From Alphaproteobacteria bacterium (GTDB lineage: Bacteria; Pseudomonadota; Alphaproteobacteria; UBA828): a stretch of DNA of 64,000 nt. The notes beneath the pieces were generated by a model. It ran no database searches, was not told the DNA's origin, and was given only the letters and a program-made list of their open reading frames with translations. The stretch covers positions 1 to 64,000 of the forward strand of contig WTGU01000124.1 in the NCBI GenBank assembly GCA_011523425.1. The letters run 5' to 3'. Position 1 is the stretch's first letter, and the number at the start of each line of letters is the position of its first letter. Both the position numbers and the translations under genes were made by a program. Shown here in pieces: positions 49,266 through 64,000 of the stretch.

Positions 49266-50351
49266 CTAGCTGCGTCCGCCATCGTCGCCATGCGGATAGA
49301 ACTGCCTGCAGTAGCGCCGGTATCTGCCGATGGGACCGTCGGAGCCGCAGAGGCTTGGATGGGGCCGGTAGCTCTTCTTCCCCCAGATCACGACATCCTG
49401 GAGAACGTCCTGTTTCTGTATGGAAAGCAGAAACCTGTTCATGATCCCGGTGCGCGCCTTCACCGGCAGGAATCCGAGGCCGGCGATGAATCGCCTTGGC
49501 TTTCGCAGCATACGGACCTGCGAGACCAGAACGAGGTCGACGAGCGTGCCGTCGACCGGCGTGGTTAGAACCCACAGGCGGGTCTCCATGCCGACGGTGT
49601 GCTCGTGGATGTCGACGAACGAGTAGCCCAGTCCGTGGACGTAGGTGGCGGCCGACACGTCGAAGACGAGGTCGATGACTCCGGCGATACGCGTGCGACG
49701 CCTGAAGTCGAAGCAGCTCACGAGACGTGCGCCGTCCACCGTCGCCGATCCGACGGGGTTCACGTTGTCGTAGCCGTGCACGTAGCGCAGGTGGGCCAGG
49801 TCCACCGAGTTCTCTGTCGTCTCCTGAGGATGGCCGGGAAACCGGAGGGTCTCGACTTCAAGCTCGCTCCACTCGTCTCCGGCCGGCGGCTCTTCGGGAA
49901 GGTCCCATTGCGGCGGGCGTCCGTCGATGCCCCACCAGGCGAAGACGAGGCCGAGAATCTCGCGCGTGGGGAAGACGCTCAGCCTCGTGCCCTTGGGCGG
50001 CGGCGCATAGGGTGTCGCGACGCAGGCGCCTGTCGCGTCGTAGGTGAAGCCGTGAAAGGGACACACCAGTCGGCCGTCGCGCACGCGCCCGCCGGCGGCG
50101 GGGCTCAGGGAGGATCCCAGGTGGGGGCAGAGCGACCGGGCGACGCAGACGGCTCCCTCGTCGTCGCGCCAGACGACGATGTCCTGCCCCATCCACTGCT
50201 TTTCGATCAGTTCGCCCTTCGCTAACGAGCGACGGTCGGCGACGAAGTACCACCCTTCGGGAAACGGGAAGAGGGAGGGATCGTCGCCGCCCGCGATCAG
50301 ATTCTCTTCCACGTCTTGCGGGACACTCTGTCGATGAAGATGCATCTGCAT
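49266..50351 (-). CDS. Rieske [2Fe-2S] aromatic-ring/steroid-type oxygenase
   Basis: A Rieske non-haem iron oxygenase of 361 residues from ATG 50351 (384 from ATG 50420; neither start has a good ribosome binding site). The Rieske cluster ligands are CPHLG (Cys75, His77) and CPFHGF (Cys97, His100). The mononuclear iron site is ENSVDLAHLRYVHGY, with Asp184, His187 and His192 by that numbering. The ENSVDLAHLRYVH pattern resembles steroid-oxidising Rieske enzymes such as KshA and DAF-36/Neverland, so a sterol- or terpenoid-like substrate is a fair inference. Electrons would come from an external reductase that is not in the window. It opens the unusual lipid cluster, facing away from the RND gene. 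Confidence 0.88.
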   Translation of the reverse strand: MQMHLHRQSVPQDVEENLIAGGDDPSLFPFPEGWYFVADRRSLAKGELIEKQWMGQDIVVWRDDEGAVCVARSLCPHLGSSLSPAAGGRVRDGRLVCPFHGFTYDATGACVATPYAPPPKGTRLSVFPTREILGLVFAWWGIDGRPPQWDLPEEPPAGDEWSELEVETLRFPGHPQETTENSVDLAHLRYVHGYDNVNPVGSATVDGARLVSCFDFRRRTRIAGVIDLVFDVSAATYVHGLGYSFVDIHEHTVGMETRLWVLTTPVDGTLVDLVLVSQVRMLRKPRRFIAGLGFLPVKARTGIMNRFLLSIQKQDVLQDVVIWGKKSYRPHPSLCGSDGPIGRYRRYCRQFYPHGDDGGRS

Positions 50352-50676
50352 GGCAAGGACCGTCGGCCCGGAGTGCAGGGCGGCATATGGTCGTGGGGCA
50401 TCGAACCCCGTCCACGCCATACCGGATTATGTGGTGAGCGCGCAACACGTCGCCAACCGCGGCGAGCGTGCGTGGATCGCGGTCGCGCGCCCGCGCAGCC
50501 GCCGCAAGCCGGGCGGGTTCGCCCGAGAGAGCGATGGACAAGGGATCGGGAGGCTGTGATACTGCCGTGGAAATGCTCCCGATTCTGGAGTCGCCACACG
50601 GCTTCCGGCTGCATCGACGGCGAGCGGGAAGCGCGTCAGAGCCACTCCCCGACTGACATCTGACGACGCACCATTC
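50352..50676. other. 325-bp divergent region between the Rieske and RND genes
   Basis: No gene was found here other than the possible extension of the Rieske gene to 50420. The region between the two divergent starts should hold the promoters of both, but no clear -35/-10 pair or operator was seen. The composition is less GC-biased than nearby genes. Confidence 0.5.
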
Positions 50677-53037
50677 ATGAAATACCTCCCCTCCGGCATC
50701 GATTTGGACTCCTCCATAGCGCACGTTATGCGTCGCCGGTGGCTGACCATTTTGCTCTCCGTGATCGTCATGCTGTTGCTTGCCGCAGGTGCCCAGAACC
50801 TCGTCAGTGTCGACGTCGATTCTCGCAATCATTTCAGTAAAGACGACCCGAATCTTGTCGCGCTCGAGCAACTGGAGGGCACCTACGCCATCTCCGACAC
50901 CATGCTGGTTGCCTTGGCGCCGAAGAGCGGCACCGTCTTCACGCAGGAATCGCTCCTTGCCATAGAAGAATTGACCGAGGCGCTGTGGCGCACGCCTTAT
51001 GTCATCCGCGTCGATTCACTTGCTAACTATTCACACAGCGAAGGTCTCGAGGACGAGCTGATCGTCGAGTCGCTTATCGACGACGCCGCTGCGCTGAACG
51101 ACGACGACATAGAGCGGATCGAGAGTATCGCGCTCGGTACCGAGGAGATTGCCGGGCGCCTGATTTCCCGGGACGGCCGCGTTGCCGGGCTGATCGTCAG
51201 CGCGGCGATCCCCGACGAGGAGCGAGAGCAGGCCAAGCTGGACGTCGTCGACTACCTCAACGCCGCCACCGCCGAGGCGCGAACGAAGCATCCGACCCAC
51301 GGGTACTACCTGACCGGCGAAGTCTTGCTCAATCGCGCGGTTCGCGACGCGCTCAACGAGGACATGGGCCTGCTCGGCCCCATCGCGCTCGGGGTCATGC
51401 TGCTCGTTGCCCTGCTCATGCTGCGCACGATCTGGGGAATCGTCGCGATCGTCCTGATGATCATTGCGGTCGTCATATCCGCGTTGGGCTTCGGCGGCTG
51501 GGCAGGCATGAAGCTCTACGGCGAGAGCGGGGCGGCGCTGTTCGTCCTGATGGCGATCACGGTCGCCCATTGCGTGCACATCATAGAGGCAATGCTGGCG
51601 GGCCTGCGCCAGGGAATGGACCGCAGACAGGCGGCGATTCACTCTCTGAAGCTCAACGTGTGGCCCGTATTCCTGACGTCGATCACGACGGCGATCGGTT
51701 TCCTCAGCCTGAACTTCTCCGAGATGCCGCCGTTTCGGGTCATGGGCAATATCGTCGCCTTCGGCTCGCTGTCCGCCTTCGTCTTTTCGGTGACGCTCCT
51801 GCCGGCTTTCCTGTCTCTCATGCCCCTGCGCGTCCGGCCCGCCAAGGCCGGGAAGACCGATTATTTCGACCGCTTCTTCGAGCGTTTCGGGCGCTTCGTC
51901 GTGTCCCGCCGCATTGTCATGCTGGCTGCCTTCGGCGTCCTCGTCGTGGCGCTGGTTGCCGGCATCTCGCGCATCGAACTCGACGACAATCACCTCGAGC
52001 TTCTCAGCGAAAGCTACGAGTTCCGGCGAGCCACGGATTTCGTGAGCGACAATTTCTCCGGCCTGGAGCCGTTCGAGTACTCGCTCGAGTCCGGGCAAGA
52101 GGGCGGCATCACGGATGTCGGCTATCTGAAGCAGGTCGACGCGTTCGCGGAGTGGTACCGGGCGCAGCCCGAAGTCGCTCATGTCTTCGGCGTCACCGAC
52201 ATCGTGAAGCGCCTGAACAAGAATCTGAATGGCGACGATCCGGAGTTCTACCGCATTCCGGACGACACCGAGCTCGCCGCCCAATACCTGCTGCTTTACG
52301 AATTCTCTCTGCCGGTGGGCCTGGACCTCAACAACCTGATCGACGTCGAACGGTCGGCGACCCGCCTGACGGTCGTCCTGAAGGCGCTCTCCGTCAACCA
52401 GAAGCTGGAGCTCGACGAGCGCGCGCGCGACTGGCTGCGCCAGAATGCGCCTGGCCTGGAGACCGGCGCCGCCGGGATGACGATCGTCGGGGCGCACTCG
52501 ATCAACAGAAACATCGAAAAGATGCTGATCGGCACCATCACGGCGATGGGCATCGTCTCGCTGCTGCTGATCTTCATCTTCAGGAGCGTGCGCTTCGGCC
52601 TGATCAGCCTGATACCGAATTTCGTCCCGGCCGCCATGGCGATGGGGCTGTGGGGGTATGCGGTGGGACAGGTCGGAGTCTCGGCGTCCGTCGTCACCGC
52701 CATCGCCTTCGGCATCATCGTGGACGACACGATTCACTTCATGACCAAGTATCTGAGAGGCCGGAAGAACGGGCAGTCGCCGGAGGAATCCGTCCAGTCC
52801 GCATTCGGCACGGTCGGCAAGGCGCTGCTGGCGACGACCGTCGTGTTCGCGCTGGGTTTCATGGTGTTCGGCGCATCGGGGATGGCGAACAACCAGGCGC
52901 TCGGTCTGCTGGCGGGAACGACGGTCATCATCGCTCTCCTGGCGGACTTCCTGTTCCTGCCGCCGTTGCTCATGATTCTCGATAGAAGAAAGGGGACGAG
53001 CGGAGCGACCAAGGTGGCGAGCGAGGAGAGCAATTGA
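50677..53037 (+). CDS. RND superfamily exporter (MMPL/COG1033 type)
   Basis: A 786-residue efflux protein of the COG1033 type. One helix (about residues 21-38) is followed by a large periplasmic loop to about 220, then six helices including GESGAALFVLMAITVAHCVH, a second loop (about 425-610), and six more helices with AIAFGIIVDDTIHFMTKYLRGR. The FGIIVDDTIHF segment is the RND proton-relay region of MmpL and HpnN-like lipid exporters. The domain is related to sterol-sensing domains. It is the first plus-strand gene of the cluster, and two envelope proteins follow it, so export of a lipid made by the neighbouring oxidases is inferred. Confidence 0.9.
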   Translation: MKYLPSGIDLDSSIAHVMRRRWLTILLSVIVMLLLAAGAQNLVSVDVDSRNHFSKDDPNLVALEQLEGTYAISDTMLVALAPKSGTVFTQESLLAIEELTEALWRTPYVIRVDSLANYSHSEGLEDELIVESLIDDAAALNDDDIERIESIALGTEEIAGRLISRDGRVAGLIVSAAIPDEEREQAKLDVVDYLNAATAEARTKHPTHGYYLTGEVLLNRAVRDALNEDMGLLGPIALGVMLLVALLMLRTIWGIVAIVLMIIAVVISALGFGGWAGMKLYGESGAALFVLMAITVAHCVHIIEAMLAGLRQGMDRRQAAIHSLKLNVWPVFLTSITTAIGFLSLNFSEMPPFRVMGNIVAFGSLSAFVFSVTLLPAFLSLMPLRVRPAKAGKTDYFDRFFERFGRFVVSRRIVMLAAFGVLVVALVAGISRIELDDNHLELLSESYEFRRATDFVSDNFSGLEPFEYSLESGQEGGITDVGYLKQVDAFAEWYRAQPEVAHVFGVTDIVKRLNKNLNGDDPEFYRIPDDTELAAQYLLLYEFSLPVGLDLNNLIDVERSATRLTVVLKALSVNQKLELDERARDWLRQNAPGLETGAAGMTIVGAHSINRNIEKMLIGTITAMGIVSLLLIFIFRSVRFGLISLIPNFVPAAMAMGLWGYAVGQVGVSASVVTAIAFGIIVDDTIHFMTKYLRGRKNGQSPEESVQSAFGTVGKALLATTVVFALGFMVFGASGMANNQALGLLAGTTVIIALLADFLFLPPLLMILDRRKGTSGATKVASEESN

Positions 53038-53082
53038 ACGGCGCGGACGCGTGTCCCCATTCTCGGAGGTGAGGTGGGCGGG

Positions 53083-54348
53083 ATGATCGCGCGCTTCCCC
53101 GTCGCTCTTTCAGCGCTTGGCCTGCTGGTCTCGCTGCTCGCGACCGGCGCACACGCCGACAACGGGATCATTGATTATTTCGAGCTTTCCGGGCGCTATT
53201 CGCCGGAAACCCGGCTCTACCCCGAGACTCCCGCGTTTCCCGACCAGCGTTCCCATGCGAGCGGGTTTGCCGCGGAGATCACTGCCTACATGGAGGACGA
53301 CGAGGGTAGAAGCGTCACGATCACGCCCTTCTACCGCTTCGACGCCGGGGATCCGGAGCGCACCCACGCCGATCTCCGCGAGGCCTTTCTTCTCCTCTAC
53401 GGCGACATCGGCGAGGACGAATGGGAGCTGCGGCTCGGCGTCGATCGCGTGTTCTGGGGCGTCGTCGAATCGCGCTCCCTGGTCGATATCGTCAACCAGA
53501 CCGACCTGGTGGAGCACCCGGACGAGAAGACCAAGCTGGGCCAGCCGATGGCCCACGTCACCCTGTCGGGAGACTGGGGGGCGGTGGAGCTGTTCGCGCT
53601 GACCGGGCACCGCAAGCGCACCTATCCGGGCCGCCACGGCCGCCTGCGTCCCGCGCTGGTCGTGGACCACTCGCTGACCACGTACGAATCCCAGAATGAG
53701 GAGTGGCATGTCGATCTCGCCGGCCGCTACACCGGCAGCGTCGGCCCGCTCGATATCGGGCTCAGCGCGTTCGACGGCACCAGCCGCGAGCCCACCCTGC
53801 TGCCGATGCTGGCCGGCCGCGAGCTCGTTCTGGCGCCGTATTACGAGCAGATCCAGCAGTTCGGCCTGGATACCCAGCTCACCACCGGCCCCTGGCTTCT
53901 CAAGCTGGAAGCCATTCACCGCGCCGGCGCGCAGAACGCCCGGCTCGATCAAACCCTCAACTACGAGGAAGAGGACTACGCGGCCTTCGTCCTGGGCGGC
54001 GAGTACGCGATCTATTCCCCTTGGGAGCTCGACTCCGAGCTGACCCTGATCGCCGAATGGACCCACGACGGGCGAGGCCGCTGGGCGACCAACGCGTTCG
54101 AGAACGACCTGCTCCTCGTCGCGCGCCTCGGGCTGAACGACGAGCAGAGCACCGAGTTCGTCGGCAGCGTCCTGAACTCCCTCGAAAACAGCAGCCGGGT
54201 TCTTGGCGCCGAGTTCAAGCGCCGCCTCTCGGACAGCCTGTCCCTGCATGTGGAGGCCGCCGCCTATGTGGGGATCGACGAGAACGACGCCGCCTATGTC
54301 GCGCGGCGGGACAGCTACATCGGGGTGAACCTGGACTACAACTTCTGA
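53083..54348 (+). CDS. predicted outer-membrane beta-barrel protein
   Basis: A 421-residue exported protein. It has a clear Sec signal (MIARFPVALSALGLLVSLLATGAHA, cleavage after about residue 25) and a body of short amphipathic strands with alternating residues, ending in NLDYNF, a C-terminal phenylalanine typical of outer-membrane barrels. No named domain was recognised; it resembles the barrels that accompany COG1033 exporters. ATG 53083 follows GGAGGTGAGG. It lies 45 bases after the RND gene. Confidence 0.7.
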   Translation: MIARFPVALSALGLLVSLLATGAHADNGIIDYFELSGRYSPETRLYPETPAFPDQRSHASGFAAEITAYMEDDEGRSVTITPFYRFDAGDPERTHADLREAFLLLYGDIGEDEWELRLGVDRVFWGVVESRSLVDIVNQTDLVEHPDEKTKLGQPMAHVTLSGDWGAVELFALTGHRKRTYPGRHGRLRPALVVDHSLTTYESQNEEWHVDLAGRYTGSVGPLDIGLSAFDGTSREPTLLPMLAGRELVLAPYYEQIQQFGLDTQLTTGPWLLKLEAIHRAGAQNARLDQTLNYEEEDYAAFVLGGEYAIYSPWELDSELTLIAEWTHDGRGRWATNAFENDLLLVARLGLNDEQSTEFVGSVLNSLENSSRVLGAEFKRRLSDSLSLHVEAAAYVGIDENDAAYVARRDSYIGVNLDYNF

Positions 54349-54514: not shown

Positions 54515-55336
54515 GTGATCCGCGTCTCTTCCCCCTACCTGTTGCTCGCGCTCTTCGGGATCTTCGTTGCCGTCCTTGCCTGGGCGGTCGAGCCGCCGCT
54601 CTCCCGGGCGGCCGAAAGTGCCGAGGAAGCCGGGCTCAGGATCGCGACCGACGCCCGCGAGCGCGAGAAGGGTTTCGGCAATTTCACCGCAAGCCTCAAC
54701 ATGGTCCTGCGAAACAAGCGCGGGCAGGAGAGCCGGCGCGAGCTTCGACTGCAGGTCATCGAGGTCGAGGGGGACGGCGATCGCACCATGTTCGTGTTCG
54801 ACCGGCCGCGCGACGTCAAGGGAACGGCGTTTCTCGTCCATGCCCACAAGGACGAGCCGGACGAGCAGTGGCTCTATCTTCCCGCCCTGAAACGGGTCAA
54901 GCGCATCAGTTCCTCGAACCAGTCCGGCTCCTTCATGGGCAGCGAGTTCGCTTACGAGGACCTGGGCGCCTCCGAGATCGAGAAGTACGCGTACACGTAC
55001 CTGCGCGACGAGCCCTGCGGCGAGCTCGAATGCGTCGTGGTGGAGCGTGTCCCGCTCGACCGGAAGTCGGGCTACTCACGTCAGATTGTCTGGTTCGACC
55101 AGGAGGAGCTTCGCGTCCAGCAGATCCAATTCCACGACCGCAGGGACGCGCACCTCAAGACGATGGTCGTGGAGGGCTACCAGATGTATCTCGATCGCTT
55201 CTGGCGGGCCAGCAAGATCACCATGACGAACCATCTCACGGGAAAGAGCACCGAGCTGCACTGGCTGGACTACGAGTTCGGCACCGACCTCGACGTGGGC
55301 GACTTCACCAAGACCGCCCTGAAGCGCATCCGATAG
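54515..55336 (+). CDS. LolA-like outer-membrane lipoprotein-sorting protein
   Basis: A 273-residue exported protein of the outer-membrane lipoprotein-sorting (PF17131-like) family. A signal or anchor segment (YLLLALFGIFVAVLAWAV, residues 8-25) is followed by ERLRL-like beta strands, TMFVFDRPRDVKGTAFLVHA, EQWLYLPALKRVKRISSS, SGSFMGSEFAYEDLG and KTMVVEGYQMY, all usual in the family. GTG 54515 has the strong GGAGGAAACG site. LolA-fold proteins carry lipids in a hydrophobic half-barrel across the periplasm, which fits between the RND pump and the outer-membrane protein. Confidence 0.85.
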   Translation: MIRVSSPYLLLALFGIFVAVLAWAVEPPLSRAAESAEEAGLRIATDAREREKGFGNFTASLNMVLRNKRGQESRRELRLQVIEVEGDGDRTMFVFDRPRDVKGTAFLVHAHKDEPDEQWLYLPALKRVKRISSSNQSGSFMGSEFAYEDLGASEIEKYAYTYLRDEPCGELECVVVERVPLDRKSGYSRQIVWFDQEELRVQQIQFHDRRDAHLKTMVVEGYQMYLDRFWRASKITMTNHLTGKSTELHWLDYEFGTDLDVGDFTKTALKRIR

Positions 55337-55406: not shown

Positions 55407-56765
55407 ATGCCGAGACGGGTTGCCATAGTCGGCGCAGGGATCTCCGGACTGGCGGTGGCCTGGGCGCTCGATCGTCACCCCGATCGCTTCGACTTTCGCC
55501 TGTACGAGGCGCAGGCTCAGGTCGGCGGCAATGCCATCACGGCCGACATGCCGCAGGACGACGGCACCTCGATTCCGTTCGATATTTCCGTCACCGCGTG
55601 CATTCCCTCGGTGTACCACCACATCGTCCTGCTCATGCAGCAGCTCGGTATCGACCTGATAGATACCAGGTTCAGCTACAGCGTGAAGTATCGCGGCGGC
55701 GTCTACGCGCACGATTTCGACTCCGACATCAGGAGGCAATTGCAGCCGGAAATCGAGAAGTTCCAGCGGCTGCTGCGGCGCCTGCGCTGGTTCGGCCGCC
55801 TCAATCGGAGCAGGTCCAGACTGCTCAACGCCTTCAACCCGTACAACTACGTCAGCATGGGTGCGATTCTCAATCTGGGACGGTACTCCGGCGACTTCAG
55901 GTACAAGATACTGAAGCCGATGTTCGTCAACTTCCTGATGGCGACGAACGTGTTCGACATGCCTGCGTCCCTGTTCTCCCGCTATCTCGAGTTCTTCGAT
56001 ATCGAGACCGCAACGCCGATGCAGACCTGGGACCGGGGCACGCGGCGCATCTACGAGGCGCTGTCGGCCGCCTTTCGGGACAGGATCTACCTCGAGCGAC
56101 CGGTGCGGAAAGTGTATCGGCGCGCAGGCGAAGTCGTCGTGGAGGACGAGAACGGAGAGACCGAGACGTTCGACGATGTCGTCTTCGCCTGCAACGCCAA
56201 TCAGACGCTGATGATGTTGGACAAACCGACCTTCATGGAGAGCAGCCTTCTCTCTTCGATCCGCTACGAGAGCGAGCTGCACAACCACACGGTCGTCCAT
56301 TCCGACGCGTCGGTTCTTCCCGACAACGAGGTCGAGCCGCTCGCGACGCGGAGCAATCACATCGAGCAGTACGGGGCGAGGCCCGACAATTACGAGATCA
56401 CCTATATCATGCACAATCAGCAGCCCTGGGTGCACCGGTCGGACAAGCCGTGCCTGGTGACCTACAACCCGATCAGCCGTATCGACGAAGGCAAGGTCAT
56501 CAAGAGGTGGTGGTTTCAGCACATCGTGCACGACGTGCCCCACGTGGCCATCCTGATCCACCTGTTCCGCTTCGTTCAGGGCAAGCGGCGGACGTGGCAC
56601 TGCGGCGCCCACACTCTGGTCAACAGCCAGGAGACCTGCTTCGTCACCGGCCTCGTCACCGCGAGGCAGCTCGGGGCGGACTATCCGTTCGAGGATTCCG
56701 AGGCGCGCAAGTGGTTCAACTTCTACGGCCGCACGATGTACGGCCGGCGCTTCAGGAAGGCGTGA
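55407..56765 (+). CDS. FAD-dependent oxidoreductase, COG2907/amine oxidase type
   Basis: A 452-residue flavoprotein. The dinucleotide motif is VAIVGAGISGLAVAWAL, followed by the YEAQAQVGGNAITADMP second FAD segment, and it ends with GLVTARQLGADYPF. The overall pattern is that of COG2907 and phytoene-desaturase-like enzymes; one characterised relative, UfaD, oxidises fatty acyl chains during furan fatty acid formation. No cyclopropane synthase or DUF1365 gene is next to it, which is the usual COG2907 setting. It is convergent with the P450 gene, 19 bases apart. The substrate is probably a lipid, by context only. Confidence 0.82.
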   Translation: MPRRVAIVGAGISGLAVAWALDRHPDRFDFRLYEAQAQVGGNAITADMPQDDGTSIPFDISVTACIPSVYHHIVLLMQQLGIDLIDTRFSYSVKYRGGVYAHDFDSDIRRQLQPEIEKFQRLLRRLRWFGRLNRSRSRLLNAFNPYNYVSMGAILNLGRYSGDFRYKILKPMFVNFLMATNVFDMPASLFSRYLEFFDIETATPMQTWDRGTRRIYEALSAAFRDRIYLERPVRKVYRRAGEVVVEDENGETETFDDVVFACNANQTLMMLDKPTFMESSLLSSIRYESELHNHTVVHSDASVLPDNEVEPLATRSNHIEQYGARPDNYEITYIMHNQQPWVHRSDKPCLVTYNPISRIDEGKVIKRWWFQHIVHDVPHVAILIHLFRFVQGKRRTWHCGAHTLVNSQETCFVTGLVTARQLGADYPFEDSEARKWFNFYGRTMYGRRFRKA

Positions 56766-56784: not shown

Positions 56785-58812
56785 CTAGACGGGCAGCTCG
56801 CGCGCCTGCTCGGCGACGCGGAATTTCAGCTTCCGGTTCGGAGACATCGACGGAAACGGGTTGATCCGGAGCTTGTAGTTCTTCGGCGACACCTCGAGCG
56901 TGAAGTAGCGCGCGATCATCAGCAGGTTGACGGTGAGCTGCATTTCCATCCAGCGGAAGCCGAGACACATGTGAGTGCCGAGCCCGTAAGGCGCGTATCC
57001 GGGGCTGCGGTGCTCGTTGCGCGGCGGCAGGTAGCGGTCGATGTCGAACTTGTAGGGCTCCGGGAAGACGTCGCTCATGTAGTGCGGGGCCGTCTGGGCG
57101 ATGACGATGCGCGCCCCCACCGGAAGCTGGTAGCCCTCGATGACGCACGAGTTCATCACGTTGCGAATCGACGCGGGCACCACGGGGTACATGCGCATGC
57201 ACTCCATGATGAAGCGGTTCGTGACGTCGAGGGCCGACTTGGTGTAGGCCGCCCCGTCCGGGTCGCCGTCGGCGAACAGGGCATCGGCCTCGCCCCGAAT
57301 CCGGCGGTAGAGTTCGGGCTGTGACGCCATGGCATAGAGGCCGAAGCCCAGCGCATCGCCGAGGTACATGCTGGCGAGCATGGGTGCCGACAGATAGAAC
57401 GCCATGTTCGACTCGGGGAGGAATTGCGGGTCGCTGGCATGGAGGCTGAGCATGTCGTCCGCGAGGGTGCGCGGGCAGCCGGACCTCTGCGCGGGCGTGT
57501 GGACGTTCAGGATCCGTTGCACCGCCACTTCGATGGCCCTGGCAGGCTTCTTCATGCCCGGGGTGTGCAGCATGAATTTGGGCAGGACCCTCGCGACGTG
57601 GGTGGTGAGCGCCCGCTCCTTGAACTTGATCAGGTCCTCCACGATGTCCTGCGCCTCGATGCTGAGAATGACGGGCGCTATCTGCGCGTTGACCATGAGG
57701 CGGCAGGTGGCGGTGCCCGGCAGGGTCGAGCCCACCTTCCAATCCGCCATGAATGCGCGAATGTGTCCGTAGAGGGCGTCCAGCTCTCCCTCCAGCCTCT
57801 CGCGAGAATAGCCCGGCTGCATGGCCTTGCGCTGCCGGAAGTGATCGGCGCCGTCGAGGGAGGGGATCAGCCCGGAGGCGCCGTAGACTTTCTCGACATC
57901 GGTGAAGTAGTCCTTGGATCTCAGGTACATCCGCCCGTTGCGGTGGAGCCAGCGGTTGGTGGCGGCCCCGGCCAGGAAGGTCACGGTCTCGCCGAATGGC
58001 GGACGGATCTGAAACACCGGCCCGTACTCTTGCGCGAGCCCGGCGCAGATTCCGGGGATGTTGCGATCGCGCATGTGTCGATTGAGCAGCAGCTTGTGCC
58101 ATGGAACGACCGGAATCTTCTTGGTGAAGGCGGCGTGTCGAAGCAGTGGGCTGGCGATGTTCGCTTCGACCGCATCGGCGATGGAGCGGCCGATCAGGTC
58201 CATCCTGCAGATGAACGTGATGCGCTCTTCCGCCTCGTCGTCGAGGTCGAAAATGAAGCGAAACACGTCGCAGGTATTGACGAGGCAGATGATGATGATG
58301 TCTCTCGGATCGGGGATCGCCTCGGTGAAGATGTAGACGCTGATGCGCGTCTTGATGAACTGATCCGGGGTGTCATCGTCGAGGTGGCCGTACTGGTCGG
58401 AGTAGCGGCTGGTAGGGGCCAGGGTCCAGAAATCGCCGTCGTGGTGCTTCAGGATCTTGAGATCGACCAGGCGGTCGAGAGTCAGGTCGATGATCGAATC
58501 CGCATGGGCGGCGAGTCGCTCGATCCAGTACTGGGCGTTGTGCCGAACCGGCTCGTCCGCGATTTCCTTCAGAATGGGATCAAGCGCCGGGTTTCCCGTT
58601 TCCGTCCGGTCCACCAGGAGCAGCGACTCCATGTCCGTGTCGATGCGCTCGAGGAGGGACAGTTCCGCCAGTACCGCGCCGACGACGGCGCAGTTCAGTT
58701 CCCAGCCCTGGACCTGGTGAAAGTAGCCTGTCTCCTCGTTGAGGAGCATCAGGATGAGCTCCTCGGGCAGCGTCAGGGATTGGGATGCCAGACCCTCGGT
58801 CGAATCAGCCAT
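56785..58812 (-). CDS. GPP34 domain - cytochrome P450 fusion protein
   Basis: A 675-residue protein with two domains. Residues 12-225 form a GPP34 (GOLPH3-like) domain: LTLPEELILMLLNEETGYF, WELNCAVVGAVLAELSLLER and DPRDIIIICLVNTCDVFRF. From about residue 235 a full cytochrome P450 follows, with HFRQRKAMQ (helix C), the ExxR in MECMRMYP, FPEPYKFDIDRYLPP, and the haem loop YAPYGLGTHMCLGF with Cys616. The I-helix reads ASMYLGDALGFG, which lacks the usual Thr of the AGxxT motif. GPP34 binds PI4P and sorts glycosyltransferases in eukaryotes; in bacteria its role is unknown, but membrane or lipid binding is plausible. AAGGAGG precedes ATG 58812. Confidence 0.93.
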   Translation of the reverse strand: MADSTEGLASQSLTLPEELILMLLNEETGYFHQVQGWELNCAVVGAVLAELSLLERIDTDMESLLLVDRTETGNPALDPILKEIADEPVRHNAQYWIERLAAHADSIIDLTLDRLVDLKILKHHDGDFWTLAPTSRYSDQYGHLDDDTPDQFIKTRISVYIFTEAIPDPRDIIIICLVNTCDVFRFIFDLDDEAEERITFICRMDLIGRSIADAVEANIASPLLRHAAFTKKIPVVPWHKLLLNRHMRDRNIPGICAGLAQEYGPVFQIRPPFGETVTFLAGAATNRWLHRNGRMYLRSKDYFTDVEKVYGASGLIPSLDGADHFRQRKAMQPGYSRERLEGELDALYGHIRAFMADWKVGSTLPGTATCRLMVNAQIAPVILSIEAQDIVEDLIKFKERALTTHVARVLPKFMLHTPGMKKPARAIEVAVQRILNVHTPAQRSGCPRTLADDMLSLHASDPQFLPESNMAFYLSAPMLASMYLGDALGFGLYAMASQPELYRRIRGEADALFADGDPDGAAYTKSALDVTNRFIMECMRMYPVVPASIRNVMNSCVIEGYQLPVGARIVIAQTAPHYMSDVFPEPYKFDIDRYLPPRNEHRSPGYAPYGLGTHMCLGFRWMEMQLTVNLLMIARYFTLEVSPKNYKLRINPFPSMSPNRKLKFRVAEQARELPV

Positions 58813-59084
58813 CAGCCGTGGCCTCCTTGGACCTGAAGTCGTGACACAGTACGAGCGCCGGAACTGCCGCGCAATTCGAAGGGACGCACATGATCGGTGA
58901 GCAGTGCGGGATTGACTACCTCAAAGATGGTCGAAATGAAAAGACCGCCACGACCGGACGATACAAGAAAGCGAATTGAGAACGGGGCCCCAATGCCGCG
59001 TTTCGGTCTGCGAGTTGTGCGGCCAGTGCGTCTCGTCACGAACAGGCGCATGCGGGGTCTCGGATTGCCGTCGTCGTTCACCGA

Positions 59085-59344: not shown

Positions 59345-60649
59345 ATGAAAGTCCGTCATCTGCTGATAGGCGCCGCAGTCGCCACGGCGGCCGTCTGGTC
59401 GCTTACGACCGCCGCACCTGCCGCCGACCCGATCAAGGTCGGCTATATCGGCTCGTTCGACACCGACACGGGCAAGAGCACGATCCGGGGCACCGAGATC
59501 GCCATCGAGGAAATCAATGCGGCCGGCGGGGTGCTCGGCGGGCGCATGATCGAGCTGGTCAAGGCCGACACGCGCGAGGACGTGCAGGAGGGTATCAAGG
59601 CTTATGAATACCTGAACGAGGTCGAGAACGTCGACTTCATCATCTCGGGCTGCATCGACGACGTGTCGCTGGGCTGGCTCGAGCGCATGGCGGAGTACCG
59701 GACGCCGACCCTCGACACCTGGACCTCCTATGTCGGCATCATCGACAAGGTCGTCGAGGAGTACGAGAAGTACAAGATGTACTTCATGAACGTCTCCAAC
59801 GACTACGCGCTGGCCATCCTCTACGTCGACTTCGGCAAGGACGTGCTCTCCAAGAAGATGGGCTGGAAGACGGTGTACGTTCTGCAGGAGGACACCGCGT
59901 TCGGCGGCGGCGTCTACGAGCTGATCGAGCAGGTGCTCGCGCCGGAGGCGGGCATCGAGATCATCGGTCACACCGTCTACGACACCAACACGGTCGACTT
60001 CGGCCCCATCTACAACAAGGCGGTGGCGGCGGAGCCCGACTTCATCTACTCGATCGCGGCGGTGCGCAGCCAGGTGCCGGCCTCGCAGTACGTGAAGCTC
60101 GAGGTGCCGGTGCCGATGACCGGGATCAACGTCTCGGCCTTCGCCCGGGAGTTCTGGGACGACACCGGCGGCCTCGGCGGCGGCATCTCGACGCTGAGCC
60201 CGGTGCCCTCGATCGGCTCGGAAATCGACCCGCGCACTCAGGACTTCCTCGATAGGTACAGCGCCAAGTACGGCGATTCGCGGCCGGTCTTCCCGCACTT
60301 CAACGGCTTCAACGCCTACTACGGGATGCTCAACGCCTTCGCCGCGGCGGAGCGCGCCGGCGGCTTCGATCCGCTCGACGACTGGGTCCGCGAGATGGAG
60401 AACGACGATATCGTCGTCGAGAAGGACGGCGAGATCTGGCTCCGCTACGCCTTCTGGAAGCCGGGCGAGATCGAGCCCCGCACCCAGCGGGAATACACCC
60501 ACAACATCAAGTTCGACATCAACCCGCCCTACGACGAAGGGGCGCCGTCGATGGTGGTCATCCAGTGGTACTCGGACGGCTCCACCAAGGTCGTCTACCC
60601 GCCGAAGTACGCCAACGGCGAGTTCGAGGTGCCGGACTGGCTCAAGTAG
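59345..60649 (+). CDS. ABC transporter substrate-binding protein (branched-chain amino acid/amide class)
   Basis: A 434-residue periplasmic binding protein of the Leu/Ile/Val class (type 1 fold). The signal peptide is MKVRHLLIGAAVATAAVW to about residue 27 (APAAD). The mature protein opens with PIKVGYIGSFDTDTGKS, then GTEIAIEEINAAGGVLGGRM and VDFIISGCIDDV. Members bind branched-chain amino acids, urea, short amides or aromatic acids, so the ligand is open. GAGAGG precedes ATG 59345. It heads a complete importer operon. Confidence 0.9.
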   Translation: MKVRHLLIGAAVATAAVWSLTTAAPAADPIKVGYIGSFDTDTGKSTIRGTEIAIEEINAAGGVLGGRMIELVKADTREDVQEGIKAYEYLNEVENVDFIISGCIDDVSLGWLERMAEYRTPTLDTWTSYVGIIDKVVEEYEKYKMYFMNVSNDYALAILYVDFGKDVLSKKMGWKTVYVLQEDTAFGGGVYELIEQVLAPEAGIEIIGHTVYDTNTVDFGPIYNKAVAAEPDFIYSIAAVRSQVPASQYVKLEVPVPMTGINVSAFAREFWDDTGGLGGGISTLSPVPSIGSEIDPRTQDFLDRYSAKYGDSRPVFPHFNGFNAYYGMLNAFAAAERAGGFDPLDDWVREMENDDIVVEKDGEIWLRYAFWKPGEIEPRTQREYTHNIKFDINPPYDEGAPSMVVIQWYSDGSTKVVYPPKYANGEFEVPDWLK

Positions 60650-60664
60650 GTCGGCTAGTCACTC

Positions 60665-60695
60665 ACCGGGCGCGACTTTACGGGTCGCGCCCGGT
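60665..60695 (+). terminator. intercistronic hairpin after the binding-protein gene
   Basis: ACCGGGCGCGAC and GTCGCGCCCGGT form a perfect 12-bp stem with a 7-base loop, followed by TTGCCTTG. Its position between the binding protein and the permease suggests partial termination or 3'-end protection that keeps the binding protein more abundant than the membrane subunits. Confidence 0.75.
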
Positions 60696-60787
60696 TTGCC
60701 TTGCTGGAAGTGCGCCGGGGTCGCCCGTGATCGGAGCGCCCCGGCCTTCGTGCGAACGCTGACCCGACGGCCCGCGAGCGAGCTCTG

Positions 60788-61642
60788 ATGGCGCTCCAGA
60801 TCCTGATCCAGGGGTTCGTGCTCAGCGGCCTCTATGCGCTGATCGCCGTCGGCTTCACCATGATCTTCAGCGTCGGCCGGGTGCTGAACCTGGCCTACGG
60901 CGTCTACATCATGCTCGGCGGCTACATCTACTACGCGGCCCTCCAGGAGGCGGGGCTGCCGGTCTTCGCGAGCTTCATCCTGGCGATTCTGGCGGGCGTG
61001 ACCTTCGGCCTGCTCACCTACATCCTTCTGGTACGCCGGCTGGAGGACAACCCGATCGCGGTCGAGATATCGACACTGATCCTCGCCGTCGTCATGCAAG
61101 CGCTGATCGTGGTGATCTTCGGCGCCGCACCCAAGACCATGTGGCCGGTGATTCGCGGCGTGCTCCGCTACGAGGGCGTCTCGGTCACCATGAACATCCT
61201 GCTGGCGACGGGCGTGAGCTGGGTGGTGCTCGGGGGCCTCATGGCCTTCGTCCGCTACACCCATCTCGGCCGCGCCATCCGCGCGGTCTCCATGGACCGC
61301 AAGGGTGCGGTGATCTCGGGCATCGAGCCCAGCGTCATCAGCATGGTGACCTGGGCGCTCAGCGGCGCCTTTGGAGCGATCGCGGGCGTCTTCTTCGCGA
61401 CCTTCACCCAGCTCGACTCCCACATGTGGGTGTTTCCGCTCATCATCTCGGTGGCGGTCGTGATCGTCGGCGGCATCGGCAGCATCGTCGGCAGCCTGAT
61501 CGCGGCCCACATCATCGGCTTCGTCGAGACCATCACGACTACCTTGATCGCGGCCGAGCTGCGCGGCGTCTCCACCATGCTGCTGATCATCCTGGTGCTG
61601 CTGGTGCGGCCCAAGGGCCTCTTCGGCAAGGCGGAGCTCTGA
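60788..61642 (+). CDS. branched-chain amino acid-type ABC permease (LivH family)
   Basis: A 284-residue permease with about eight membrane helices. LIQGFVLSGLYALIAVGFTM at the N-terminus, LNLAYGVYIMLGGYIYY, RTHLGRAIRAVS-like (YTHLGRAIRAVSMD), and GGIGSIVGSLIAAHIIGFVE match LivH. It pairs with the LivM-like permease four bases downstream. Confidence 0.92.
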   Translation: MALQILIQGFVLSGLYALIAVGFTMIFSVGRVLNLAYGVYIMLGGYIYYAALQEAGLPVFASFILAILAGVTFGLLTYILLVRRLEDNPIAVEISTLILAVVMQALIVVIFGAAPKTMWPVIRGVLRYEGVSVTMNILLATGVSWVVLGGLMAFVRYTHLGRAIRAVSMDRKGAVISGIEPSVISMVTWALSGAFGAIAGVFFATFTQLDSHMWVFPLIISVAVVIVGGIGSIVGSLIAAHIIGFVETITTTLIAAELRGVSTMLLIILVLLVRPKGLFGKAEL

Positions 61643-61645
61643 GCG

Positions 61646-62599
61646 ATGGCCGTCGACCGCGAGACGCTGCGCTATCTCGGCTGGTGGCTCGCCTTCGGCG
61701 TGCTCATGTGCCTGCTGCCGCTGGTGGTCGGCACCGGCACGCTGCGCATCCTGATCTTTGCCCACTTCCTGGCGATGTTCGCCATGAGCTGGGATTTCCT
61801 CTCAGGCAGGACCGGCTACATCAGCTTCGGCCATCCGTTCCTCATCGGCATCGCCGGCTACACCACGGCGATCCTGAGCTTCCGCTTCGACGTCCCGATC
61901 TACTACAGCATCCCGGCGGCGGTGGCGGCGACCATGGTGGGCGGCACGCTCTTCTTCCTGCCCGCGCTGCGCATCCGCGGCACCTACTTCGCGCTGGTGA
62001 CGCTTGCCTTCATGGAGATCCTCTACCAGCTCACCAAGGTCGTGGCGCCCAAGATCACGGGCGGCACCAGGGGCATCTCGGGCCTCGAGAGCATCGTCTC
62101 CGGTGCCGTGAACAACTACTACCTCAGCTTCGGCATCATGTTCGTGATCGGGGTCGTGCTCTGGCTCCTCATCCGCACGCGCCTCGGCATCGCGCTGAGC
62201 GCCATCAGGATGAACGAGGAGGCGGTCCGCAGCACCGGCCACAACACCACCAAGCTCAAGCTCTTCGCGTTCACGGTGAGCGCCGCCGTCTCCGGCATCG
62301 GCGGCGCCTTCTACGTCCATTACATCGGCTCGATCGCGCCGCGCGGCATGTTCGAGATCAGCTTCCTCTTCACCATCCTGGTCGCGGCGCTGCTCGGCGG
62401 GGCCGAGACGATCATCGGTCCGATCATGGGCGCCTACTTCCTGACCGTCCTGCTCGAGTATCTCCGGCCGGTGATGCCGGGCATGGAGCGCTATCTCCTC
62501 TACGGCGGCATCGCGCTGGTGCTCTACGTCGTCAAGCCCGAAGGCATCTACGCCATCATCGCCGACGCCGGCCGCAAGGTGCAGGAGTGGCGGCGATGA
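61646..62599 (+). CDS. branched-chain amino acid-type ABC permease (LivM family)
   Basis: A 317-residue permease. LAMFAMSWDFLSGRTGYISFGHP near residue 38 is the LivM hallmark, followed by ALRIRGTYFALVTLAFMEI and RTRLGIALSAIRMNEEAVRS. About nine membrane helices are visible. It overlaps the first ATPase gene by four bases. It should form the channel with the LivH-like subunit. Confidence 0.92.
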   Translation: MAVDRETLRYLGWWLAFGVLMCLLPLVVGTGTLRILIFAHFLAMFAMSWDFLSGRTGYISFGHPFLIGIAGYTTAILSFRFDVPIYYSIPAAVAATMVGGTLFFLPALRIRGTYFALVTLAFMEILYQLTKVVAPKITGGTRGISGLESIVSGAVNNYYLSFGIMFVIGVVLWLLIRTRLGIALSAIRMNEEAVRSTGHNTTKLKLFAFTVSAAVSGIGGAFYVHYIGSIAPRGMFEISFLFTILVAALLGGAETIIGPIMGAYFLTVLLEYLRPVMPGMERYLLYGGIALVLYVVKPEGIYAIIADAGRKVQEWRR

Positions 62600-63333
62600 C
62601 CGAAGGCCCGCTGCTGGAGGTGCGCGACCTCCACATGACCTTCGGCGGCATCCGCGCCGTGCAGGGAATCTCCTTCCAGGTGGCGGAGGGCGAGACGCTC
62701 GGCCTGATCGGCCCGAACGGCGCCGGCAAGACGACCGTCTTCAACATGATCATGGCGGAGCTCAAGCCCACCAAGGGCGAAATCTGGTTCAAGGGCGAGA
62801 ACGTCACCCGCGTGCCCACCCACGAGCGGGTCAAGCGCGGCATCGCGCGCACCTATCAGGTCCCCCAGCCCTTCGGCGAGATGTCGGTGGGCGCCAACAT
62901 CCGCGTCGGCATGGCGCCGGACAACCTCTGGAAGCTCGTCGCCGAGGGAGCGGACCAGGCGGCCGAGGCGGAGATCGGCCGCAGCGTCGGCTTCTCCGAC
63001 GAGCAGATCGAGAGGCTGCCGAGCGAGCTCGCCATGGGCGACCTGCGCCGGCTTGAGATGGCGCGCAACGTCGCCGTTTCGCCCAGGCTGCTGCTGCTCG
63101 ACGAGGTCTTCGCCGGCCTGACCCTGAAGGAGATCGCGCAGATCTCCGAGCTGCTGGTGGAGAAGAAGCGCAGGGACGGGCTCACCTACATCATCGTCAG
63201 CCACGATCTGCGCGCGTTGGCGCCGCTCGTCGACCGGGTCATCGTCATGTCCTTCGGCGCCATCATCGCGGAAGGCACGTTCGACGAGGTGGTGAAGGAC
63301 GAGGCGGTGCGCGATGCCTATCTCGGACAGTAG
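62596..63333 (+). CDS. ABC transporter ATPase (LivG family)
   Basis: A 245-residue nucleotide-binding subunit. Walker A is LIGPNGAGKTTVFN, the Q-loop lies in TYQVPQPFGEM, Walker B is LLLLDEVFAGL and the H-loop histidine is in IIVSHDLRAL. The signature helix reads SELAMGDLRRLEMARN instead of LSxGQ; LivG relatives with LxxGDxxRLE are common, so I do not read it as broken. It starts on an ATGA overlap at 62596. A long frame open back to 61141 is not part of the gene. Confidence 0.92.
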   Translation: MTEGPLLEVRDLHMTFGGIRAVQGISFQVAEGETLGLIGPNGAGKTTVFNMIMAELKPTKGEIWFKGENVTRVPTHERVKRGIARTYQVPQPFGEMSVGANIRVGMAPDNLWKLVAEGADQAAEAEIGRSVGFSDEQIERLPSELAMGDLRRLEMARNVAVSPRLLLLDEVFAGLTLKEIAQISELLVEKKRRDGLTYIIVSHDLRALAPLVDRVIVMSFGAIIAEGTFDEVVKDEAVRDAYLGQ

Positions 63334-63354
63334 GAGCGGGAAGGGGAGGGGATC

Positions 63355-64000
63355 GTGGCGCTCCTGAGCATCGGCGACCTCGATGTCTTCTACGGCCGCG
63401 CCCAGGCGCTGCACGGCGTCTCGCTGGAGGTGGAGGCGGGCAGCATCGTCGCCGTCGTCGGCCCCAACGGCGCCGGCAAGTCGACCCTGCTCGATTCCAT
63501 CGTCGGCCTGACGAGGCGGCGCGGGCAGATCACCTTCGCCGACACGGACATTACCCGCATGTCGCCGGCGCGGATCATCCGGCTCGGCATCGGCTATGCG
63601 ACGGAACGCGGCAACCTCTTCCCCTTCATGGGGGTGAAGGAGAACCTGCTCGTCGGCGCCTATCGCAAGCGCGATGCGATCGAGGCCAACCTGCGCACCG
63701 TGTTCGACCTCTTCCCCCGGCTCGAGGAGCGGCAGAAGCAGGAGACCGCGACCCAGTCCGGCGGGGAGCGCCAGATGGCATCGCTCGGCCGCGCGCTGAT
63801 GTCGAGTCCGACGCTGCTCATGGTGGACGAGCCGACGCTCGGCCTCGCGCCCCGCGTGTGCCTCGAGATCGCCGCCGTGCTCAAGGACCTGAACGAGCGG
63901 CTCGGGCTCACCATCGTGATCACCGAGCAGAACGTGAACTTCGCCATGAGCCTCGCGCGGGAGGTCTACCTGCTGGAGACCGGCCGCATCGGCGAGCCGA
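63355..64000 (+). CDS. ABC transporter ATPase (LivF family), 3' truncated by the window edge
   Basis: The first 215 codons of the second nucleotide-binding subunit, from GTG 63355 behind GGGGAGGGG. Walker A is VVGPNGAGKSTLL, the signature reads QSGGERQMASLGRAL, Walker B is LLMVDEPTLGLAPRV and the switch region ends ITEQNVNFAM. The gene continues past base 64000. It completes the usual K-H-M-G-F order of a LIV-class importer. Confidence 0.93.
   Translation, partial: MALLSIGDLDVFYGRAQALHGVSLEVEAGSIVAVVGPNGAGKSTLLDSIVGLTRRRGQITFADTDITRMSPARIIRLGIGYATERGNLFPFMGVKENLLVGAYRKRDAIEANLRTVFDLFPRLEERQKQETATQSGGERQMASLGRALMSSPTLLMVDEPTLGLAPRVCLEIAAVLKDLNERLGLTIVITEQNVNFAMSLAREVYLLETGRIGEP

Follow-up and report, generated by a model that had tools for sequence, protein, structure and literature searches.

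The locus and its conserved neighbours

The window considered here, a stretch of 64,000 nucleotides from an alphaproteobacterial genome, carries on its minus strand a gene in which a GPP34 domain and a cytochrome P450 are joined (Table 1). The reading frame opens with an ATG at 58812 and closes with a stop at 56785-56787, and the plus strand over 56785-58812 is interrupted by a stop. An earlier note on this DNA had claimed that both domains lie in one frame of 675 residues behind a well-placed ribosome binding site, and had suggested domain searches, a check of the domain order in homologues, and structural modelling. The frame and its two domains are borne out by the open reading frame and by Pfam, and a Shine-Dalgarno sequence is indeed present upstream of the ATG. 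Both domain searches score above cut-off, with 99.5 bits for PF05719 (GPP34; cut-off 29.1, E 3.4e-28, model positions 1-200 of 201) and 115.5 bits for PF00067 (p450; cut-off 22.8, E 3.6e-33, near full model). The domain order is conserved, since 37 of 38 homologous loci align across both domains, and the predicted structure of the GPP34 part shows the fold of GOLPH3 and Vps74.

Table 1. Features of the fusion gene and of the genes beside it
Feature	Position	Strand	Basis or remark
Rieske oxygenase with KshA_C domain	49266..50420	-	
MMPL/RND transporter	50677..53037	+	Pfam MMPL and Sterol-sensing domain matches
Conserved protein	53074..54348	+	weak DUF1302 match below cut-off
LolA-like outer-membrane lipoprotein-sorting protein	54515..55336	+	PF17131
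FAD-dependent amine-oxidase-type enzyme	55407..56765	+	convergent with the fusion
GPP34-P450 fusion gene (class A), 675 aa	56785..58812	-	ORF reading and Pfam
Cytochrome P450 domain, residues 247-656	56845..58074	-	PF00067
Haem-ligand Cys616	56965..56967	-	39/39 copies
Altered I-helix motif ASMYLGD, residues 480-486	57355..57375	-	acid-alcohol pair lost
GPP34 domain, residues 15-217	58162..58770	-	PF05719; GOLPH3 fold in predicted model
Shine-Dalgarno AAGGAGG, 9 nt ahead of fusion ATG	58822..58828	-	

Several of the adjacent genes are of kinds associated with sterols or membranes. The nearest solved structure to the Rieske protein is 3-ketosteroid 9alpha-hydroxylase (E 2.7e-25); its identification as SdmA was rejected at an NCBIfam score of 41.7 bits against 600. 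The FAD enzyme has the amine oxidase LkcE as its nearest solved structure (E 5e-24) and is 76-90% identical in other carrier genomes, and the product of the gene with the weak DUF1302 match is probably an outer-membrane barrel. The FAD gene is present as a single copy, and its conservation across phyla exceeds that of the fusion. On the opposite flank, the plus strand of positions 59345-63999 holds branched-chain amino-acid ABC transporter genes, which are mostly not conserved with it.

Clustering of all ORFs around 39 fusion loci identified the recurrent partners: the sterol C-24 methyltransferase (SMT) family at 26 loci, the FAD enzyme at 18, Rieske proteins at 16, DUF1302-like proteins at 11, LolA-like proteins at 10 and ERG4/24 at 6, together with MMPL/RND transporters of four families at 26. 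Pfam found Sterol_MT_C in the four SMTs scanned and ERG4_ERG24 in the two reductases scanned. SMT, Rieske or ERG4/24 genes are present at 33 of the 39 loci, and none of them is in reach at the other six (L019, L021, L035, L036, L039, L045). The window locus is not among the 26 with a linked SMT; no SMT lies next to its fusion, and the SMTs of this genome sit on its contigs C51 and C73.

A GOLPH3-like fold joined to an altered P450

Modelled whole by AlphaFold2 from an 18-row alignment, the protein reaches a pLDDT of 82 and a pTM of 0.76. (Alignment rows were hand-picked, A1 comprising 18 of the 39 copies and A2 11 rows.) The fold matches listed for the whole model were P450, and the GPP34 region was predicted (pLDDT 82.7) and searched separately. 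With Foldseek, only GOLPH3 and Vps74 structures match it at E <= 0.001, among them human GOLPH3 (9qpq_B, E 2.5e-8, TM 0.74) and yeast Vps74, and profile alignment with human GOLPH3 gives an E of 1e-15. Mean pairwise identity across copies is 0.61 for GPP34, 0.59 for the P450 and 0.43 for the linker. In nine close pairs dN is lower than dS in both domains, the P450 having a dN/dS of roughly 0.07 to 0.24; both domains are thus under purifying selection. The strongest hydropathy window of the protein falls within the GPP34 domain, and none of its top windows is an N-terminal hydrophobic segment.

In eukaryotes, the GPP34 proteins GOLPH3 and Vps74 are Golgi effectors of PI4P, and on this basis the earlier note had connected the domain with PI4P. 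That connection is not upheld by the profile alignment with GOLPH3, in which we take W81, R90, R171 and R174 to be the PI4P-binding residues. R90 aligns to Val44 and R174 to Ile108, and R171 falls in a segment that the fusion family lacks. The position of W81 is ambiguous: it aligns to residue 35, mostly Pro, and a Trp two residues away (Trp37) is found in 33 of 39 copies. PI4P binding by the fusion in the manner of GOLPH3 is consequently not supported, the arginines being replaced or absent. In addition to the fusion, the window genome encodes four GPP34 proteins that stand alone (contigs C71, C51, C89 and C11). Between one and six GPP34 matches were found in each of the 44 genomes searched, versus none in 14 control genomes.

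The P450 domain has kept its haem site. Cys616, Glu537, Arg540, Tyr483 and Gly485 are invariant in the 39 class A copies, all of which retain the haem Cys in a GxHxCxG loop and the ExxR motif, and the PYGLGTHxCLG loop is intact in this class. The I-helix, in contrast to those of its relatives, has been rebuilt. Its class A consensus is mostly A-S-x-Y-[LVMT]-G, and the acid-alcohol pair of the classical mono-oxygenases is absent from all 39 copies, although L047 has an Asp-Thr one turn further along. Stand-alone P450 relatives at about 27-33% identity (on contig C103 of the window genome, in its congeners, and at L095 and L104) have A/GLDT and one extra residue, and [D/H]T is retained, in these relatives as in the other fusions, where class A has the Tyr motif. 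Because of this additional residue and the A/GLDT of the stand-alone proteins, the class A I-helix is read from the alignment as one in which the acid has been deleted and the alcohol replaced by Tyr. The ordinary soluble P450 that the earlier note had envisaged is therefore not what is found: the pair that activates O2 is missing in every copy. The neighbours of the stand-alone P450 on C103, luciferase-like and shikimate dehydrogenase genes, are uninformative.

Fold comparison places the P450 among several families at once. By VIA the top match is the human cholesterol 24-hydroxylase CYP46A1 (Z 33.3, rmsd 2.6, 401 aligned residues, 14% identity), nearly tied with CYP170A1 (32.9) and CYP51 (32.3), whereas the Foldseek top match is CYP184A1. 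CYP46A1 stands only marginally above CYP51 and the terpene P450s in comparisons of a predicted model, and having a fold in common shows no function. P450 families are named at identities over about 40%, and with 14% over the fold alignment the fusion does not belong to the CYP46A1 family. CYP51 enzymes have the I-helix signature AGxHT(S), and a CYP51 identity is ruled out by the ASMYLGD found in its place and by a separate CYP51-type P450 (AGQHTS, contig C51) in the same genome. The best NCBIfam matches are terpene oxygenases, led by pentalenene oxygenase at 70.5 bits against a cut-off of 800.

Distribution, relatives and genomic association with sterol genes

A scan of 84,980 named species genomes recovered 38 loci at 45-76% identity to the window fusion, of which 37 are full fusions; the alignment of the remaining one, L051, ends at residue 244, which is the end of its contig. 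An assembly or gene-calling artefact, or a fusion unique to this sequence, might be suspected from a draft genome in 159 contigs. Such an explanation has virtually no chance of being right and has in effect been refuted, for there are 37 more complete copies from independent assemblies, four of them single-contig chromosome records (L019 OX638356.1, L028 OX638332.1, L029 OX638350.1 and L043 OX639965.1). The class A fusion occurs in at least eight phyla among the 38 loci, whose titles name Alpha- and Gammaproteobacteria, Nitrospira, Gemmatimonadota, Chloroflexota, Dadabacteria, Acidimicrobiia, Bacteriovoracales and Latescibacterota. An Acidimicrobiia bin has two class A fusions in direct tandem (L034:7923-12349, plus strand). 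Two other copies are either decayed or misassembled: one is split into two frames with one TGA (G807:C31:45816-47817), and one has an in-frame TGA (G653:C89:5456-7486).

All 38 loci come from metagenome-assembled genomes. Their bins are named RHO, APA, COS, CAR or IRC (16 loci), SB06xx (6), jk18x (10), by UUID (5) or CO36388 (1). PMC9531527, an Ircinia sponge study, uses jk18x bin names; PMC12203066 gives IRC as Ircinia ramosa and RHO as Rhopaloeides odorabile and places Nitrospira sp. SB0677 in sponges; and PMC8163846 names seven sponge species with initials that match the remaining letter codes. Partly by inference, bin names thus tie 32 of the 38 loci to sponge data sets.

Within lineages the distribution is patchy. 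In the window phylum (398 genomes), a full-length match at E 1e-60 occurs only in the window genome. In the window genus, class A was found in four of eight genomes (G000, G435, G438, G440) and G439 has a divergent type only; two of the three fusion-free congeners are only 62-67% complete. The other 87 relatives searched, 13 of them from the same family outside the genus, gave no full-length match. In Gemmatimonadota, the phylum of G005, 39 of 298 genomes have a fusion match. A tree of the 39 copies groups the window with L015 and L016, which are titled Gamma- and Alphaproteobacteria (support 99/97), next to Nitrospirota (100/99), and L026, titled Gammaproteobacteria, branches with Dadabacteria (99/96); Pseudomonadota requires at least three changes. 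These groupings, together with the patchy presence within one genus, point to transfer of the fusion between phyla, subject to the caveat that bins and titles can be wrong.

The GPP34 search of the 44 genomes also revealed six fusions with a canonical I-helix, here called class B. Four (B1: L118, L123, L124, L125) have the motif GLDTT and two (B2: L122, L126) the motif GLHT; Pfam confirmed both domains in L118, L122, L123 and L126. L127, L128 and L129 were rejected, as their long frames hold GPP34 alone. In a P450 tree built from six stand-alone P450s, the six other fusions then known and 18 class A copies out of at least 42, class A (100/100), B1 (100/100) and B2 (96/95) form separate clades. 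Because the base of this tree is unresolved and also holds stand-alone P450s, a single fusion event with later losses and several independent fusions are both possible. An orthologous Acyl_transf_3 gene lies directly downstream of B1 in L118 and L123, though not in L125, and L124 ends at that point; a sulfotransferase adjoins both B2 fusions. Class B may thus pair a hydroxylating P450 with subsequent acylation (B1) or sulfation (B2). Downstream of the B2 fusion of a Nitrospira bin lies a DruA-like (Druantia) gene (L126:6909-8057, plus strand), and just upstream of one B1 fusion lies a gene for a eukaryotic-like leucine-rich-repeat protein of 1477 aa (L123:363-4793, plus strand).

The association with sterol genes extends to whole genomes. 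Among 37 carrier genomes, SMT is present in 32, ERG4/24 over cut-off in 29 and the FAD enzyme in 27. Of the 298 genomes of Gemmatimonadota, 36 carry class A, and 29 of these have SMT, against 2 of the 262 others (Fisher p 2e-31, a test that ignores genome kinship); the FAD enzyme is found in 26 of the 36 and in 2 of the 262 (kinship likewise ignored); the same two genomes, G610 and G663, are the exceptions for both genes. In 22 of the 29 SMT-positive Gemmatimonadota carriers the SMT lies within 10 kb of the fusion. The three Gemmatimonadota with only the divergent fusion type have neither SMT nor the FAD enzyme. It should be noted that five of the 37 carriers have no SMT match, and that the inclusion among them of G005, a chromosome assembly, counts against a strict link with SMT. 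An SQHop cyclase domain is present in 18 of the 37 carriers and gave no match in 19. Since the chromosome assemblies G005 and G014 have no such domain, gene content suggests that carriers of this kind use sterols made by others.

Proposed function and comparison with known systems

Given these findings, we propose, with a probability of about one half, that the fusion is a membrane-docked haem-thiolate enzyme of unusual chemistry in a bacterial sterol-modifying module. The P450 lacks an N-terminal membrane helix of its own, and the GPP34 domain would dock it at the cytoplasmic side of the inner membrane, into which sterols partition. Such docking is suggested by the fold by itself, and the lipid ligand would be other than PI4P bound in the GOLPH3 mode. 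The substrate would be a sterol that the neighbouring SMT has probably alkylated, and in carriers without an oxidosqualene cyclase it would have to come from the host or from other symbionts. Because the acid-alcohol pair is gone, the chemistry may be something other than classical O2 activation, such as a rearrangement or a peroxide-driven or dehydration type of reaction; this step derives from one motif. Sterol peroxides, which are known from sponges, would be natural candidates for the substrate. The FAD and Rieske enzymes could then modify the sterol further, and the MMPL, LolA-like and barrel proteins could carry the product toward the outer membrane.

The same observations have been weighed against other explanations. 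The intact haem Cys, ExxR and PYGLGTHxCLG loop, and the position of CYP46A1 as top VIA match, are what would be expected of an ordinary sterol mono-oxygenase, akin to a side-chain hydroxylase or a C-22 desaturase, with Tyr483 delivering protons instead of Asp/Thr; some P450s do function without the canonical Thr. We nevertheless regard this as unlikely, because an I-helix residue lost in 39 of 39 copies, when the pair is kept in stand-alone relatives and other fusions, looks like a change of function. A different substrate, some other membrane lipid or a terpenoid, such as a hopanoid or a polar lipid, beside which sterol genes lie for other reasons, would fit the terpene oxygenases among the NCBIfam matches, far under cut-off as these are, the six loci without sterol genes, the carriers without SMT and the 19 of 37 without a cyclase match. 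The within-phylum association with SMT and the tight linkage argue against it, as do the KshA-like Rieske gene and the sterol-sensing transporter, and we judge it distinctly improbable. Less probable still is a P450 domain that is not an enzyme but a haem-containing carrier or sensor, handing membrane sterol to the SMT or to the transporters. The loss of the O2-activating motif and the MMPL/RND genes adjacent at 26 of 39 loci are in keeping with such a role; a pure carrier, however, needs no haem, and here the haem ligand and ExxR are kept in all copies under purifying selection.

Taken together, the results leave the earlier interpretation standing as to a real fusion, its conserved order, the GOLPH3 fold and a genomic context of membrane lipids, and do not support it, in the form given, as to PI4P and the ordinary soluble P450. 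Its view that the architecture is uncharacterised also holds, within a defined scope: in the open-access literature on GPP34-P450 proteins and on sponge-symbiont sterols, no description of the fusion was found. The protein is widespread and apparently undescribed, and it travels with SMTs even into bacteria without a detectable cyclase. The putative enzyme would be of interest as a naturally occurring P450 in which the oxygen-activating site has been deleted under selection; it also offers a candidate role for bacterial GOLPH3-like domains, which have been little studied so far. Published work places SMTs and sterol clusters in sponge symbionts, and the fusion adds a concrete candidate for an enzyme that remodels host sterols. 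Among the unusual sterols of sponges, 24-isopropylcholesterol is read in rocks as a possible oldest trace of animals. A broader hypothesis, which is tentative and as a whole somewhat doubtful, is that GPP34-P450 proteins represent a recurrent design with which sponge symbionts tailor membrane sterols. Class A would be a new kind of haem-thiolate sterol enzyme with a deleted O2-activation site that moved between phyla with its SMT and FAD partners and lets cyclase-free bacteria rewrite host sterols; the hydroxyl made by class B would be acylated in B1 and sulfated in B2; and the family could be a bacterial source of odd sponge sterols, including animal biomarkers.

Known systems share single features with the fusion. 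GOLPH3 and Vps74 have the fold of its GPP34 domain, but the fusion is bacterial, is joined to a P450 and has not conserved the PI4P arginines. CYP74, CYP5A1, CYP8A1 and CYP152 are P450s without the I-helix Thr that, like class A, keep the haem and have an absent or changed acid-alcohol pair, a likeness by motif only; to our knowledge, none of them is fused to GPP34. The Streptomyces GOLPH3-like protein SCO4440, tied to peptidoglycan remodelling and wall-deficient cells in PMC12402492, which also counts 218 bacterial species with a GPP34 domain, is a bacterial GPP34 protein like the fusion but, as described there, without a P450.

Sterol clusters of sponge symbionts are represented by msb (PMC7074536) and CSG (PMC9531527), and SMTs by PMC10070321; GPP34 did not turn up as a term in any of these three main texts. 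Contig C51 of the window genome matches msb and CSG, with Rieske, ERG4/24, the CYP51-like P450, an SMT and a squalene epoxidase-cyclase fusion (746 bits to TIGR03463, whose cut-off is 851). The last (L081:4076-7921, plus strand) is a single protein combining squalene epoxidase with oxidosqualene cyclase, like the MsbE of PMC7074536. From this match, the window bacterium can probably make sterols de novo, the fusion being an additional locus. Neither ERG24 nor CYP51 nor a cyclase adjoins the window fusion, all three being on C51; habitat kind and host phyla are like those of msb and CSG, but the cluster around the fusion is a distinct, second locus. Another parallel, in construction, is the Methylococcus CYP51-ferredoxin fusion (PDB 6mcw, 7snm), which is among the top fold matches and likewise joins a bacterial sterol-pathway P450 to a second domain. 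There, however, the P450 is a lanosterol 14-demethylase and its partner a redox domain, whereas the partner in the window fusion is of a lipid-binding kind.
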